Shown piece after piece: positions 45,015 to 50,815 of a stretch of DNA of 64,000 bases. Within the stretch, counting starts at the first letter, position 1; each line of letters begins with the position of its first letter. The translations under genes and the position numbers were made by a program. The notes beneath the pieces were generated by a model, which searched no databases, was not told where the DNA came from, and saw nothing but the letters and a program-made list of their open reading frames with translations. The DNA is from Pseudomonas sp. MM223 (GTDB taxonomy: Bacteria; Pseudomonadota; Gammaproteobacteria; Pseudomonadales; Pseudomonadaceae), in the NCBI GenBank assembly GCA_947090765.1, contig OX352322.1, positions 639,501 to 703,500 of the forward strand, in the 5' to 3' direction.

Positions 45015-45640
45015 GCGGGCCGGAACGCATCACCCTGGCCATGACGGGCGCCTCGGGCGCCCAGTATGGCCTGCGCCTGCTCGATTGCCTGGTGCGCGAG
45101 GACCGCGAGGTGCATTTCCTGATCTCCAAGGCCGCGCAACTGGTGATGGCCACCGAGACCGACGTGGTGCTGCCGGCCAAGCCCCAGGCGATGCAGGCGT
45201 TTCTTACCGAATACACTGGCGCCGCCGATGGGCAGATCCGTGTGTACGGCAAGGAAGACTGGATGTCGCCGGTAGCCTCCGGCTCCGGCGCCCCGGCGGC
45301 GATGGTGGTGGTGCCTTGTTCCACCGGCACCCTGTCGGCGATTGCCACGGGTGCCTGCAACAACCTGATCGAACGCGCTGCCGACGTTACCCTCAAGGAG
45401 CGCCGCCAGCTGATCCTGGTGCCGCGCGAAGCGCCGTTTTCCACCATCCACCTGGAGAACATGCTCAAGCTGTCGCAAATGGGCGCGGTAATCCTGCCAG
45501 CGGCGCCGGGCTTCTACCACCAGCCGCAGACCATCGACGACCTGGTCGACTTTGTCGTGGCGCGCATCCTGAACCTGCTTGCCATTCCCCAGGATATGTT
45601 GCCGCGTTGGGGTGAGCACCACTTCGGGGTGGATGATTGA
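45011..45640 (+). CDS. ubiX: flavin prenyltransferase UbiX
   Basis: A 209-residue enzyme making prenylated FMN for UbiD decarboxylases in ubiquinone synthesis. Motifs are [48 protein letters not shown] and [14 protein letters not shown]. It starts with a GTG overlapping the mpl stop. The mpl-ubiX pair is conserved in pseudomonads. It links to flavin supply from the rib genes. Confidence 0.96.
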
Positions 45641-45924
45641 AGCGAGCGCTGTTGGGTGTGGCGGCACTGGTGATGCTGGGTGGCTGCGCCACGGTGCGCA
45701 CGCTGGATGCTGCCAAACCGGGGGCGCCGGTGGTGTATGCCGGTACCCGGCTGGATTTGTACGTGATCAATGGCGGGTGCTGCCCGCGGGACCATTACGG
45801 CGCTGATGCACCGGCCTATCCAGGTTTGGACCTGCCCGGCAGCATGTTGCTCGATACCCTGTTGTTGCCGTTGTCATTGCTGACTGCGGCCGGAGTAGGC
45901 TTCCAGGCAACCGGTGGCCTCTAG
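45637..45924 (+). CDS. YceK/YidQ-family lipoprotein
   Basis: A 95-residue small lipoprotein with lipobox LGGC (Cys17) and the family pattern [16 protein letters not shown]...[22 protein letters not shown] (DUF1375). The likely start is a TTG overlapping the ubiX TGA (TTGA). Its function is unknown; it is probably co-transcribed with mpl-ubiX. Confidence 0.78.
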
Positions 45925-45940
45925 TCAGCGCCGCATGACC

Positions 45941-46034
45941 TTGTAGGAGCAGCCTTGTGCTGCGAAGGGGGCATCACTGCCACTGAAAATTTTTGGCTGT
46001 ACCGGCCCCTTCGCAGCACAAGGCTGCTCCTACA
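45941..46034. repeat. REP element pair
   Basis: Inverted REP copies, ttgtaggagcagccttgtgctgcgaa and ttcgcagcacaaggctgctcctaca, lie between convergent genes. Confidence 0.85.
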
Positions 46035-46057
46035 GGTAAAATGCGGGCCCAAAGGGT

Positions 46058-46702
46058 TTACTTCTTACCCAGCCTGCGCAACTCATCCGACTCTACAACC
46101 CGTATCCCGTCCTCTTCCTCCAGCGCCAGCCGCCACAACGCCCGGGCCAGGGTACAAGCCTCGATCCCCCGGTACTTGCCAGGTATCAACCTGGAAAACG
46201 GCGAAACCAGTTGTTCTGCCAGCCGTGGCTCGATTCGCTCGCCCAGTAGCAACGATGGCCGTACGATGGTCAGTTGCGGCCAGTCCTGGGCCTTGAGCGC
46301 CTCTTCCATCTCGCCCTTGACCCGGTTGTAGAAAATCGACGATTTCGGGTCGGCGCCCAGCGCGCTGACCACCAGCAGGTGCCGCGCACCCAGCTCCCGG
46401 GCACGCTTGCTGAACGCCACTACCATGTCCAGGTCCACTGCGCGGAAGGCCGATTCAGAGCCGGCCTGCTTCAGCGTGGTGCCTAGGCAGCAGTAGGCGA
46501 TATCGACCCGCCCTGCCAGCTGTGGAAGGAACACCGCCGGGTCGCCCACCGGGTTTTCCAGGTGCGGGTGCTCGGCCAGCGGCCGGCGGGTAGGCGCCAG
46601 AACGCGGGTAATGGTGGGTTCGTTGAGCAGGCGGTCCAGCAGGTGTTCACCGGTCAGCCCGGTAGCACCGGCAAGCAGGACATGCTGAGGCGTCAAATAC
46701 AT
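46058..46702 (-). CDS. NAD(P)-binding oxidoreductase, HTATIP2/YbjT-like
   Basis: A 214-residue atypical short-chain dehydrogenase. The Rossmann start is [19 protein letters not shown], followed by [37 protein letters not shown] (putative Tyr-like YN-x-x-K site) and [12 protein letters not shown]. This is the TIP30/HTATIP2-like group. The substrate is unknown. It lies 27 nt downstream of the MORN/caspase-like gene on the same strand and may be co-transcribed with it. Confidence 0.85.
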
Positions 46703-46729
46703 GATGTCTCTCCCTTGTTACACACAAGT

Positions 46730-48463
46730 TTAGTGGCTGCCAGGCGTTTTTGCCTGTACCCCCACGTTGGCCTGTGCGGCGTTACGCAATGCTTCTTCAG
46801 CCTGTTGCCGGCGCAGGTGCTGCCAGTGTTCAAGTACGGCTGGCGGCGCCCACAACTGAGGCTCCGAGGCCTCGAAGCCTTCCCTTTGTTCTCTTTCGGC
46901 AACGCTGGCGCGTGCCAGTTCAAACGCCTGTTTCAGGTCGTCGGTCTGGTTCAGTGCTTCTGCGAACAGCGCATCGCCAAAGTAGGTGAAGTCGGCTTCT
47001 TCCGAGCACCCGAAGGACACGCGGTCGGCCCGGGCGGCGGTCATGATCACCGTGCGCTCATCCTTGAGCGGGGCGATGTAGCCCCCTGAATAGCAAGCCG
47101 AGATGACGATTACCTTGTCGCGGTCCTTCAGCGGCGCCAGTGCGGTGGCCAGTTCGTCGGCAGCAAGGTCGGCCAGTTGCAGGCGCGGCTGGTCAAGCAC
47201 CAACTGGTGGTCCTGGCTGCCATGGCTGGTGAGGTAGATGAACACCAGGTCTTCGGGGCCGCTGCGCTCGGCCAGGGTACTGGCGGCGCGGGTGATGTTC
47301 TCGCGGGTGGCCATGGGGCGTGTGGCCATGTGATCGCGGTGGTTGACCAGGGTCACCTGGCCGCGGGCGCCAAAGCGCACCTTGAGCATGTTGCTGACGT
47401 AGTCGGCTTCGCGCAGGAACACACTCTGCTGGCCATCGCCGGCCACTACCAGGCTGTACAGCTGGATGGGTGGCGCCGAGCGCGGTACCCGGGCCAGCGA
47501 CTCTTCCAGCAGCCGGCCCTGGTTGAGCAGGGCCAGGTCCAGCGGGTCGGGCAGCAGCTTGCCCTTTTGGTCGCGGATGCGCACGCCGTTGGCCCAGGTG
47601 CCGCCTTCGACCTGGCCGCTGGCCAGGGTCAGCCGCCCATGGCCATGGTAGGCATCGTTCAGGAAGCCGCCAATGTACGTGCTGCCGTCGGCCAGTTGCA
47701 GGCTGCCCTGGCCCGACAGGCGCCAGTCGACGAACTCGCCCTTGTAGTGGCTGCCGTCGCTGCCCAGCAGTTCGCCTTCACCCATCAGCGAGCCGTCCTT
47801 GAATTCGCCGATCCATACATCGCCATCGGCGTTTTCGTAGCGGCCACGGCCTTCCAGGCGGTTGTCCTTGAATTCACCGATGTACTGCTCGCCGTCGACA
47901 CTGTCGTACGTGCCGCTGCCTTGCAGCTGGCCGTTGACGAAGCGCCCGCTGAACTGGTTGCCGCTGGCATCGCTGCGCACCCCGGCGCCGTTGGGCTTGC
48001 CTTTGGCGAACAGGCCCTGATAGCGGCTGCCGTCGGCCAGCTCCAGCTCGCCCGCGCCTTCATACAGGTCGTCCTTGAACTGGCCGCGGTAGGTCTGGTC
48101 GGCTTGCTTGAGCGTGCCTTCGCCGTCGCGCCGGCCGTGCTTGAAGGTGCCGCCATAGTGGCTGCCTGGGGTGGTCAGGTCGCCCAGCCCCTGAAACAGC
48201 CCCTCGGCGAACTGGCCACGGTACACTTCGCCGTTCTGGCCATGCCATTCGCCCTGGCCATGCCACTGGCCGTCCTTGAAGCCACCGGCGTACCAGCTGC
48301 CGTTGGGGTAATCGATACGGCCCTCGCCCTGGAGCAGGCCATCGACCACCTGGCCCCGGTAACGCCCCCCGTCAGGAAGGCGCGCGTCTGGCGGAAGCAG
48401 CGATTCGCCATCGCCACAGGCGGCGAGCAGCAGGACCAGGGTAATTGGGAGCAGTGGACGCAT
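46730..48463 (-). CDS. MORN-repeat / C13 caspase-like peptidase lipoprotein
   Basis: A 577-residue lipoprotein with lipobox LLLAAC (Cys16). Residues about 31-295 form eleven complete MORN repeats and one partial repeat, each of the type DGS.Y.G.F.DG...G.G (examples NGSWYAGGFKDGQWHGQG and DGDVWIGEFKDGSLMGEG). The C-terminal half is a peptidase C13 (legumain/caspase-like) domain with the His in TSHGSQDH (H414) and the Cys in VISACYSGGY (C457). The ATG at 48463 is favoured because it gives a proper signal peptide. The protein is probably anchored to a membrane facing the periplasm. Substrate and role are unknown; MORN repeats may bind lipid or protein and position the protease. Confidence 0.85.
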   Translation of the reverse strand: MRPLLPITLVLLLAACGDGESLLPPDARLPDGGRYRGQVVDGLLQGEGRIDYPNGSWYAGGFKDGQWHGQGEWHGQNGEVYRGQFAEGLFQGLGDLTTPGSHYGGTFKHGRRDGEGTLKQADQTYRGQFKDDLYEGAGELELADGSRYQGLFAKGKPNGAGVRSDASGNQFSGRFVNGQLQGSGTYDSVDGEQYIGEFKDNRLEGRGRYENADGDVWIGEFKDGSLMGEGELLGSDGSHYKGEFVDWRLSGQGSLQLADGSTYIGGFLNDAYHGHGRLTLASGQVEGGTWANGVRIRDQKGKLLPDPLDLALLNQGRLLEESLARVPRSAPPIQLYSLVVAGDGQQSVFLREADYVSNMLKVRFGARGQVTLVNHRDHMATRPMATRENITRAASTLAERSGPEDLVFIYLTSHGSQDHQLVLDQPRLQLADLAADELATALAPLKDRDKVIVISACYSGGYIAPLKDERTVIMTAARADRVSFGCSEEADFTYFGDALFAEALNQTDDLKQAFELARASVAEREQREGFEASEPQLWAPPAVLEHWQHLRRQQAEEALRNAAQANVGVQAKTPGSH

Positions 48464-48572
48464 GGCGAGGACCGGGCAATAGGTCTGCCGAGTATGACGC
48501 AGAATGGGATCCTGAGACAGGGAGGGCATGGGCTGCTCCCGCCGGATTTACCATGGCTCGGGGGCGTGCGCG

Positions 48573-48726
48573 GTCCCTGTGGAAGCGGCTTTAGCCGCGA
48601 ACACCGGCGAAGCCGGTGCCATACACTGCGTTGCATTCTTCGCGGGTAAACCCGCTCCCACAAGATGTGCGCTGCATTTGAGCCTTGTGCAGAATCTGTG
48701 GGAGGCTGGCTTGCCGGCGATGAGGC
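48573..48726. repeat. REP cluster (mixed classes)
   Basis: Several REP-related hairpins lie in tandem: ggcttta-gccgcgaa, caccggcgaagccggtg, ttcgcgggtaaacccgc and ggctggcttgccggcga. They lie upstream of the MORN gene and downstream of the DUF3077 gene. Confidence 0.75.
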
Positions 48727-48746
48727 CGGTCTGCTCAACCTGAATC

Positions 48747-49007
48747 TCAGGTGAAATCCCCGGTCTGGCGATGCAAAAGTAGCTCAGCCAATGCTTTGGT
48801 CATCTGAACGTGATGTACCGCATTGACCAGCATGTTGATGCCCGGCTCACCGGCATTCGCGCAGATGTATTCGTCCAAGGTGTCTTCGATGCCAGTCATC
48901 AACTGGAGCGCGTGGTTGACGGCGTCTACCGAGGGAATGTCCTGGTCGATGGTGTAGAAGGGGCGGGCAGTCAGTGTTTTGGGTGGATCGGGGACTATTT
49001 TTTTCAT
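48747..49007 (-). CDS. DUF3077 small protein
   Basis: An 86-residue protein with KTLTARPFYTIDQDIPSVDAVNHALQLM and the C-terminal helix MLVNAVHHVQMTKALAELLLH, typical of the Pseudomonas DUF3077 family. It is soluble and of unknown function. The ATG at 49007 has no strong ribosome-binding site of its own. The leader contains a 4-codon mini-ORF with a good ribosome-binding site and a large inverted repeat, suggesting post-transcriptional control. Confidence 0.75.
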   Translation of the reverse strand: MKKIVPDPPKTLTARPFYTIDQDIPSVDAVNHALQLMTGIEDTLDEYICANAGEPGINMLVNAVHHVQMTKALAELLLHRQTGDFT

Positions 49008-49013
49008 GATCAC

Positions 49014-49260
49014 AACTCACACGTCGGTTCAGAAAATAGTCACCACTTGTCCTTTCTCACGGGATAGGGTGGCGACCGTGCACGGGGTGAGAAACCCGAG
49101 GACGTGTGAGCTCGGCCAGACCGAAGCCTGCCCGTGCACGGCTGCCATGACGAATGCCGTAATCACACATCTTCGGGTTTCTCACGCCCGGTCACCAAAT
49201 ATGGCGACCCTGAGACGGTATCCCTGAGATGTTTCCCCGACAATGGAGCGACTTCCGACA
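49014..49260 (-). promoter_or_regulatory. structured leader of the DUF3077 gene with mini-ORF
   Basis: Two arms, 49084-49109 and 49163-49188, are inverted copies (23 of 26 positions identical; core gtgagaaacccga). Between the arms and the gene, on the minus strand, aaagga (49055-49050) precedes gtggtgactattttctga (49046-49029), a possible 4-5 codon leader peptide. A self-complementary cgtgcacg also occurs twice. This is a candidate cis-regulatory RNA; the family was not identified. Confidence 0.45.
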
Positions 49261-49380
49261 GGCTCGTAGGATAATTCGCTAGATGCTCCAGGCAGAAGCA
49301 TTTGGTTTCAGGTTCGGAAATGTCTTACAGATCGGGGGATGGTGGCGAGGTGTATGCCGGGGAATTGTGTGGGGGCTTAC

Positions 49381-49668
49381 AGGTGCACGCCTTGTGTTGT
49401 TTGGCGCCTGTGAGACCGAGCGCCGCCCGCGCGGCGCTTCGCAGCACAAGGCTGCTCCTACATCTGTTTCGGGCCAATAACGCCTGAGACACAGGCGCGC
49501 GCCCCCTTGGCGTTCACCTCGATATCGTGCCGGGAAAACAAGGCGGTCGCGTGCTTTGGTACAGGCGTGACTGGCCCGAAACAGATGTAGGAGCAGCCTT
49601 GTGCTGCGAAGCGCCGCGCGGGCGGCGCTCGATCTCACAGGCGATGAACTACTCAAGGCATGCACTTC
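49381..49668. repeat. large REP-containing inverted repeat
   Basis: Arms 49405-49476 and 49573-49643 are inverted copies over about 72 bp with one mismatch and one indel. The arms contain the REP core gcagcacaaggctgctccta and a gcgccgcccgcgcggcgc palindrome. Weaker similarity extends outward to about 49381 and 49668. The 96-bp centre has no convincing gene. It fills the gap between the DUF3077 leader and acoC. Confidence 0.9.
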
Positions 49669-49707
49669 CATGCTCATACGCCATCCCCAGACATGCACTT
49701 CACTACC

Positions 49708-50815
49708 TCAATGCCCCCGCAAGAATTCCACCATCCTCCGGTTCACCTCTTCAGCCGCCTCCATCTGCACCATATGCCCGGCCTCCGGCAGCACCAGCAC
49801 TTCAGCCTCCAGGCCTTCAGCATGGCTGGCCGGGATGATCGCGTCCTTGCCACCCCACACCACCAGCGCCGGATGCTGCCCCAGCACCCCGCGCAGGTCA
49901 TGGCGCTGACGGTCACCCTCGGCAATGACCGATGCCAGCTGACGCAAGGCCTCATCAACACCTTCCAGGCGCTTGAACTTGAGCATGTCTTCCAGCAGTT
50001 GTCGGGTCACCAGCGCCGGGTCGGCAAACAGTTGCACCATCTGTGGCTTGAGGGCGTTGCGGTTGGCGGCGGCGACAAAGCCTTGCAGGTATTGCCCATT
50101 GATCGCCTCCCCCAGGCCGGCACTGGCGATCAGGCTCAGGCTGGCCACCCGCTGGGGCGCCAGGCGCGCCACATTCAGGCTGACTGCGCCGCCCATGGAA
50201 TGCCCGGCCAAGTGCGCCTTGGCAATCTCCAGGTGGTCGAGCAGGGCCAGCACGGTTTCGCTCAGGCTCATCCAGGTCGCCCCGTTGTAGCGCTTTGGCC
50301 GACTCGCCGTGCCCCGGCAGGTCCAGGGCGATCACGCGGCGTTCGGCGGCCAGCGCCGGGTGGTTGAACAGCCAATTGTTGAGGTCGCCGCCAAAACCGT
50401 GCACCAGCACCAGCGGCGTGCCGCCTTCTCCCAGCTCGAACCAGCGCAGCAGGCGGCCACCCACTTCTGCCTTCTGTGGGGCCGGCCCCTGGGCCTGATC
50501 GGCGCGCCCTTCGGCGACGAACTCGGCCTGGAAGCGCTGTACCACTGCATCGATTTCGGCTTCTTCGGCTTCGCCTTCTACCACTACGGCCAGCAGCGCG
50601 CCGACCGGCAGGGTTTCATCCGGCCTGGCTACCAGGCGGCGCAGCACGCCACTGAACGGGGCCTCGACGCTGCTGCTGATCTTGTCGGTCTCGACGTCCA
50701 GCACCTCGTCGCCCTTGTTGATTTCGTCACCTTCCTGCTTGAGCCAGGTGTCCACCCGGCCCTCGGTCATCGACAGGCCCCACTTGGGCATGGTCAGGGT
50801 ATGGATCTGGCTCAT
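49708..50815 (-). pseudogene. acoC: acetoin dehydrogenase E2 component AcoC (frameshifted)
   Basis: From the ATG at 50815 the first frame encodes a lipoyl domain (ETDKISSSVEAPFSG, lipoyl Lys) and the start of an alpha/beta-hydrolase-type domain (LVHGFGGDLNNW, GHGES). A second frame continues SETVLALLDHLE, GHSMGGA, LEAEVLVLPEAGHMVQME and ends at 49708. The break is at 50261-50270: plus-strand caggctc where cagctc would keep DLDELSET in frame. Length is 3n+1; restored, it is 368 residues, normal for Pseudomonas AcoC. AcoC transfers the acetyl group from AcoAB to CoA. It overlaps acoB by 4 bp. Confidence 0.88.

Follow-up and report, generated by a model that had tools for sequence, protein, structure and literature searches.

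What does a lipoprotein that joins MORN repeats to a legumain-type protease domain do in the housekeeping region of a Pseudomonas genome? The question is raised by a gene of Pseudomonas sp. MM223, encoded on the minus strand at 46730..48463 of the window (the whole stretch of 64,000 nt that was analyzed; positions refer to it unless indicated otherwise). The gene was assigned on the basis of its ORF, Pfam matches and synteny. The product of 577 aa is named "C13 family peptidase" in the database. It corresponds to PP_0551 from P. putida and is of the same type as PA4016 from P. aeruginosa. The initial annotation, which was made from the sequence alone, had the correct coordinates, to which the strand is added here. 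The domain and motif assignments for this lipoprotein are far above chance.

Domain architecture and active site

In this genome, the ORF could also begin at 48529, which is 22 codons further upstream. We prefer the start at 48463 because this Met is the one conserved in the 20 relatives sampled. The protein then begins with a signal peptide (residues 1-15, 48419..48463; like all other parts of the protein on the minus strand). The lipobox LLLAAC ends in Cys16 (48416..48418), the predicted lipid anchor, which is followed by Gly-Asp-Gly. The protein thus has the signal peptide and the Cys-terminated lipobox of a bacterial lipoprotein; lipidation is predicted. Both domains lie behind this lipobox, as initially annotated. 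Of 110 Pseudomonas ORFs, 109 match the lipobox, and C-G-D/E is found from the Cys onwards in these 109. In the sole exception (L080), the called ORF extends far upstream, and a simpler lipobox pattern is satisfied by all 110 ORFs. As a rule, lipoproteins devoid of an inner-membrane retention signal go to the outer membrane. Because C-G-D/E follows the lipobox and such a retention signal is lacking, sorting to the outer membrane is suggested.

The MORN array covers residues 35-298 (47570..48361). It is supported by Pfam (PF02493, E 1.1e-36, with nine stretches individually above threshold), by the motif list, by the hairpins in the predicted model and by Foldseek matches to MORN1. The count of eleven full repeats and one partial repeat could be reproduced, as the reading of the motif list by eye and the predicted model agree. 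The full repeats start at residues 35, 58, 81, 103, 125, 148, 171, 194, 217, 240 and 263, and the partial twelfth repeat consists of residues 285-298; overlapping in-repeat motif matches at 40 and 176 were left out of this count. In the AlphaFold2 model, 11 complete MORN beta-hairpins are followed by a short twelfth one, so that the tandem repeats form the hairpin solenoid typical of MORN-repeat proteins. A linker with two predicted helices (residues 299-334, 47462..47569) connects the array to the protease domain. One homologue (from G014) has two matched pieces within a single open frame of 551 aa without stops, and thus a shorter array.

Structure prediction of the array together with the protease had been proposed as a check, and it recovered both folds. 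The model of the whole protein has a mean pLDDT of 92.7 and a pTM of 0.58 (50 sequences), the latter leaving the arrangement of the domains unfixed. Foldseek matched the MORN half of this model to solved eukaryotic MORN1 structures (TMt up to 0.87) and its other half, the protease, to legumain. Eukaryotic MORN1 is also found in a sequence search of the PDB (best E 2.1e-31).

The C13 (legumain-type) peptidase domain consists of residues 335-540 (46844..47461). It matches PF01650 (Peptidase_C13) with an E of 2.2e-44 and 152.4 bits, the curated cut-off being 22.8. Modelled alone, the domain reaches a mean pLDDT of 95.2 and a pTM of 0.92 (41 sequences). Ranks 1-6 of the Foldseek results are legumain chains (best E 3.5e-10, TMt 0.62, rmsd 4.8), which are followed by plant asparaginyl endopeptidase and caspases among the best 50 matches. 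In the PDB sequence search, legumain is the only peptidase family with strong support, while metacaspase-1 appears only at E values of at least 0.66. The initial annotation was to be abandoned if a caspase-hemoglobinase fold were absent, or if the proposed His414/Cys457 dyad were replaced in most homologues. The predicted domain has this fold, with legumain ranked first. Both residues are at the indicated positions, and both are part of motifs that align to legumain: His414 (47222..47224) belongs to TSHG and Cys457 (47093..47095) to SACYSGG, and they are predicted to be catalytic. A search for replacements found none: all 25 of the divergent gammaproteobacterial domains keep the dyad, as do 50 of 50 MORN-C13 proteins (hand-picked from the protein itself and from two listings, 120 of 2400 and 120 of 2951). 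By motif, it is intact in 110 of 110 Pseudomonas ORFs and also in 57 rows scoring at least 197 bits. Further residues that are invariant in both alignments include F349, E352, D405, S455, G460, S483, G485, C486, F495, E525, S533 and P535. The protease is probably catalytically competent.

Specificity and regulation are another matter. The S1 pocket of legumain is reported to consist of Arg44, His45, Ser216 and Asp231 (PMC4357240). Only the Ser216 position is kept here: according to the alignment with legumain, it corresponds to Ser483 in the invariant part of an SFGC motif (residues 483-486, 47006..47017). The alignment equates Asp231 with D497, a position which varies (R 9, E 7, D 5, K 3, Q 1; n=25). 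L350 and R351, which were equated by eye with what we take to be Arg44 and His45 in legumain, vary as well. Glu352 (47408..47410), which is near these positions, is invariant (25/25 and 50/50). Since the S1 positions vary, the P1 specificity of legumain is not transferable. The legumain zymogen is controlled by a C-terminal prodomain of 110 residues (PMC4357240). Here, only residues 541-577 (46733..46843) extend beyond the domain. They form, for the most part, one helix with a tail, are poorly conserved and are located at the place of the legumain prodomain, which is considerably larger. Judged by the sequence, the mode of regulation must differ from that of legumain.

Distribution and genomic context

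A phylogenetic profile of the fusion, which had also been proposed, identifies it as a core gene of the genus; elsewhere, the C13 domain is also carried by membrane-domain or short N-termini. The MORN-C13 protein is present in 35 of 35 other genomes from the same genus. Matches were obtained in 41 of 57 genomes overall (own genome included). The five from outside the genus were classed by the part of the query that they cover: one is a MORN-C13 protein (G052), one has C13 only (G036) and three have MORN only (G051, G053 and G055). In its own genome, the gene is the sole C13 gene and the sole MORN gene found (E <= 0.001). C13 domains were detected in 39 of 369 genomes from the class (own genome included; 32 above the cut-off) and in 62 of 398 genomes from the phylum (59 above the cut-off).

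The 25 C13 proteins from the class set have three types of N-terminus: MORN repeats (10), a membrane domain (12) or a short N-terminus (3; L117, L124 and L136). The same three types cover the 57 rows with at least 197 bits among the 62 rows of the wider set. The other five (L137-L141, 29.6-44 bits), of which L141 yielded no Cys motif, were used for neither the alignment nor the tree. The tree was computed for 48 of the 57 C13 domains, nine Pseudomonas near-copies having been dropped. The module type requires at least 5 changes on this tree, where several forks are weakly supported, versus 20.6 in shuffles. As read from this tree, the type of N-terminal module is long inherited and occasionally exchanged. 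The 17 membrane-type relatives have five (12 proteins), four (4 proteins) or six (1 protein) predicted helices. In the 12 five-helix proteins, the loops on the side of the N-terminus contain 116 Lys and Arg residues and the opposite loops contain 14. By the positive-inside rule, their C13 domain is predicted to be periplasmic; the side is settled for these 12 of the 17 relatives only. The MORN-rod type and the membrane-domain type both appear to put the protease domain in the periplasm.

The gene is followed, after 27 bases, by a separate gene for an NAD(P)-binding oxidoreductase (46058..46702, minus strand). Linkage of the two is seen in all of the 80 Pseudomonas loci compared, with 30-60 nt separating the tblastn matches. 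These loci are the best 80 of 440 and over-represent the P. putida side of the genus. The oxidoreductase was initially listed among the possible cleavage substrates, which is not supported: it matches NAD_binding_10 and has no signal sequence (by eye), so that a cytoplasmic location is expected, in contrast to the exported protease. The genes mpl, ubiX and one for a YceK-type lipoprotein are convergent with the protease gene in 76 of these 80 loci. In the window, the latter (YceK/YidQ type, DUF1375, 45637-45924, plus strand) ends the mpl-ubiX operon. On the other side, the holin-like genes lrgAB are present in 58 of the 71 Pseudomonas loci of at least 12 kb; maoC is near the protease gene in 57 and acoABC in only 14 of the best 80 of 440 loci. 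Outside Pseudomonas, 20 loci were analyzed (from 19 of 24 class-set genomes and from G052). Any given neighbour recurs in at most 3 of these, so that a function derived from the neighbourhood was rejected. The C13 gene itself clusters in 17 of the 20.

The lrgAB block is absent from 48530-49700 and is found together with maoC at about 6.05 Mb of contig C1 (L199). If C1 represents about the whole 6.73 Mb, the block is about 0.68 Mb before the end, and the protease gene is 0.687 Mb from the start; perhaps an inversion about the origin had its breakpoint beside the protease gene. Inverted copies of a stretch like cttcgcagcacaaggctgctcctac were seen by eye in both intergenic regions (45940-46045 and 49430-49610) and are perhaps a repetitive extragenic element. 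An acoC-like ORF of 286 aa (49955-50815, minus strand) has a good start, but in the listed frame its later part is unlike a folded protein. Either the gene or the assembly may thus contain a frameshift. There is no apparent counterpart of bdhA, and minus-strand ORFs of at least 200 aa are absent from 48530-49955. In strain KT2440, bdhA is reported to lie between acoC and PP_0551 (PMC10943186).

A conserved box, TGCG[G/T]CATACTC(G), is located 25 nt before the ATG (TGCGTCATACTCG, 48489..48501, minus strand). Of 71 non-redundant upstream regions from Pseudomonas, 59 contain TGCG[G/T]CATACTC, and the shorter CATACTC is present in 69. The CATACT core is also present in L028-L031, there with about 40-50 extra bases from the ATG (by eye). 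The box probably belongs to the promoter of the gene itself; a sigma-70-like promoter was not found within 45500-49000. An exact search of the genome returned only this copy. Allowing up to one mismatch gives 7 sites, which do not exceed the 9 from a control with the reversed pattern. Therefore, no regulon is claimed for the box.

In P. aeruginosa, the gene order is aldehyde dehydrogenase, eatR, mpl, ubiX, YceK/YidQ lipoprotein, oxidoreductase and peptidase C13. With mpl reported as PA4020 (PMC10187892) and ubiX as PA4019 (PMC4316190), counting along this order results in PA4016 for the peptidase (in one other paper, "PA4016" is a strain name). A PA4016 insertion in a delta-exoU strain was reported to attenuate worm killing, which was unaffected by another allele in the wild-type background (PMC3406104). 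As the effect is confined to the sensitised strain, the phenotype of PA4016 loss may be slight. In the envelope proteome of strains that over-express two transporters, PA4016 was quantified at ratios of 0.19 and <0.05. Cytosolic enzymes are found alongside it in the table (PMC7835679), so that this is weak evidence for its location. PP_0551 has been named MORN domain-containing peptidase and was predicted to be in the aco operon, and is reported to be outside the AcoR iModulon (PMC10943186). The system was initially suggested to be undescribed. The family and the genes are in fact annotated already; it is the mechanism that is not described. A functional study of a MORN-C13 protein was not found in the literature searched, which was mostly outside subscription journals.

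Proposed function in the cell envelope

We favor a housekeeping envelope protease, periplasmic and lipid-anchored, with the MORN rod as a positioning or binding arm, and give this reading about an even chance. The protein would be exported, then lipidated at Cys16, and would probably end up at the outer membrane, on its inner face. As a rigid arm in the periplasm, the MORN solenoid would bind a partner or position it at a fixed distance. At the end of the rod, the C13 domain would act as an endopeptidase, cleaving one or a few envelope proteins by a mechanism that uses His414/Cys457. This activity would keep the permeability barrier of the envelope in order. The domains, the predicted fold, the dyad conservation, the lipobox, the core status and the predicted periplasmic side of the membrane-domain relatives were computed; the role in envelope integrity is carried over from a relative in Acinetobacter.

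According to reviews, abrp from A. baumannii encodes a C13 peptidase, and its deletion results in increased membrane permeability and slower growth. In agreement with these effects of the deletion, one review associates the presence of abrp with lower permeability and faster growth. The reviews conflict on drug susceptibility, which is lowered by the abrp deletion in one version and by the gene (or in the wild type) in the other. The C13 domain from A. baumannii has 36% identity over residues 315-536. Three chromosome-size A. baumannii records (H9, H12 and H13) have a single C13-like place each (E <= 1e-5), from which we infer that the gene at 3368-4819 of L162, coding for a membrane N-terminus and C13 motifs, is very probably abrp. 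Abrp is from the same C13 subfamily, and its C13 domain is predicted to be periplasmic. It differs in having a membrane N-terminus (4 predicted helices with the stricter cut-off and 5 otherwise) and in being devoid of a lipobox and of MORN repeats. A peptidase C13 gene has also been reported among the predictors of early polymyxin exposure (PMC4872528). Because the reviews report a permeability phenotype for Abrp, the envelope part of the initial annotation fits. That annotation envisaged a membrane-anchored MORN protease as an envelope-sensing or effector system. A predicted anchored envelope protease with fold and dyad stands, while an effector in immunity or death is not supported.

Several alternatives have to be weighed against a housekeeping protease. 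In its stronger form, the initial annotation amounts to an envelope sensor, the MORN rod keeping the protease inactive until a ligand (a peptidoglycan fragment, a lipid or a misfolded protein) binds and a stress response follows. Clan CD enzymes are reported to be often held inactive by another part of the chain (PMC4357240). As the C-terminal prodomain of legumain is absent, control could have been taken over by the N-terminal module; in other C13 members, this module is a membrane domain. Nevertheless, we regard a sensor as rather unlikely. At a whole-model pTM of 0.58, docking of the rod on the active site cannot be claimed; the three class-set proteins with a short N-terminus indicate that a large module is not essential to the domain, and a linked regulator gene was not seen in the 80 Pseudomonas loci or in the 20 loci from outside the genus. 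It is quite improbable that the enzyme is a transamidase or ligase, similar to GPI8 or the plant peptide ligases, which transfers the C-terminus of an envelope protein onto an envelope amine. VyPAL2 (rank 18) and GPI-T subunit K (rank 19) are indeed among the best 50 fold matches, but the closest ones (legumain, ranks 1-6) are hydrolases. A partner with a sorting signal or an acceptor is not known, and the activity is not readable from the family sequence.

A phage-defence or programmed-death effector, a role that bacterial caspase-like proteases often have according to the initial annotation, is very improbable and was rejected. The scores in its favor are 27.5 bits for the generic PADLOC "caspase" model and 30.9 bits for NCBIfam caspase_w_EACC1 (NF047832). 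The latter has a cut-off of 140, so that the protein is not assigned to the EACC1 caspases. Proximity to lrgAB, as is found in 58 of 71 loci, might also point in this direction, but in the genome under study lrgAB is elsewhere. A core gene (35/35) for an exported protein, in fixed synteny with mpl-ubiX in 76 of the best 80 of 440 loci, argues against such a role. PADLOC was run on the protease, and no defence genes were seen among its neighbours; the conserved ones are mpl, ubiX, the YceK-type lipoprotein gene and the oxidoreductase gene. There is hardly any probability left for a part in 2,3-butanediol/acetoin catabolism, a proposal based on the place beside the aco genes and on the operon with acoXABC-bdhA predicted for P. 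putida KT2440 (PMC10943186). The same report has PP_0551 outside the AcoR iModulon, and an E. coli construct with PP_0551-PP_0550 converted 1.75 g/l 2,3-butanediol versus 1.96 g/l without them (PMC10943186). Moreover, acoABC flanks the gene in only 14 of the best 80 of 440 loci, and a conserved box precedes the protease gene itself. This candidate was also rejected, being largely refuted.

A housekeeping envelope protease thus remains the reading that we prefer. It is tempting to speculate, although we consider this unlikely, that there is a dispersed proteobacterial family of periplasmic caspase-fold proteases in which the swapped module (MORN or five helices) acts as sensor and ruler of envelope defects. 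The Pseudomonas rod might then reach from the outer membrane to the cell wall, with the protease being released upon a change in distance or ligand, for barrier repair and not for death. Independent of this, the genus has a core envelope protease with an intact-looking caspase fold, for which the literature searched gives neither a substrate nor a role. Because both halves have relatives of solved fold, KT2440 is available as a laboratory host and an active-site mutant is clearly defined, the functions of bacterial MORN and C13 domains are directly testable. The bacterial MORN-C13 proteins and the unexplained permeability phenotype of Abrp are brought into one family.

Comparison with known systems

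Eukaryotic MORN1 proteins are cytoskeletal. Those from Toxoplasma, Trypanosoma and Plasmodium (PDB 6t6q, 6t4r and 6t4d) have the same beta-hairpin solenoid as the MORN-C13 protein, but are devoid of a protease. In the MORN-metacaspase fusions reported from aquatic bacteria, MORN repeats also precede a clan CD protease domain (PMC4933709). The table in that report has six proteins, which differ by having a metacaspase (C14) domain and only 1-4 MORN repeats (PMC4933709). Subunit K of GPI transamidase (GPI8 family, PDB 8imx) is similar in fold (Foldseek rank 19, E 3.9e-8). It is, however, part of a eukaryotic membrane complex, lacks MORN repeats and ranks below legumain. With peptidase family C13 (legumain, PF01650), the protein shares the His/Cys dyad, the TSHG and SAC-SG motifs and the caspase-hemoglobinase fold. 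In contrast to legumain, the S1-aligned positions L350, R351 and D497 vary, a large prodomain is lacking, and the protease is part of a lipoprotein with a MORN arm. Legumain is nevertheless the best peptidase match to the MORN-C13 protein, both by sequence and by fold.
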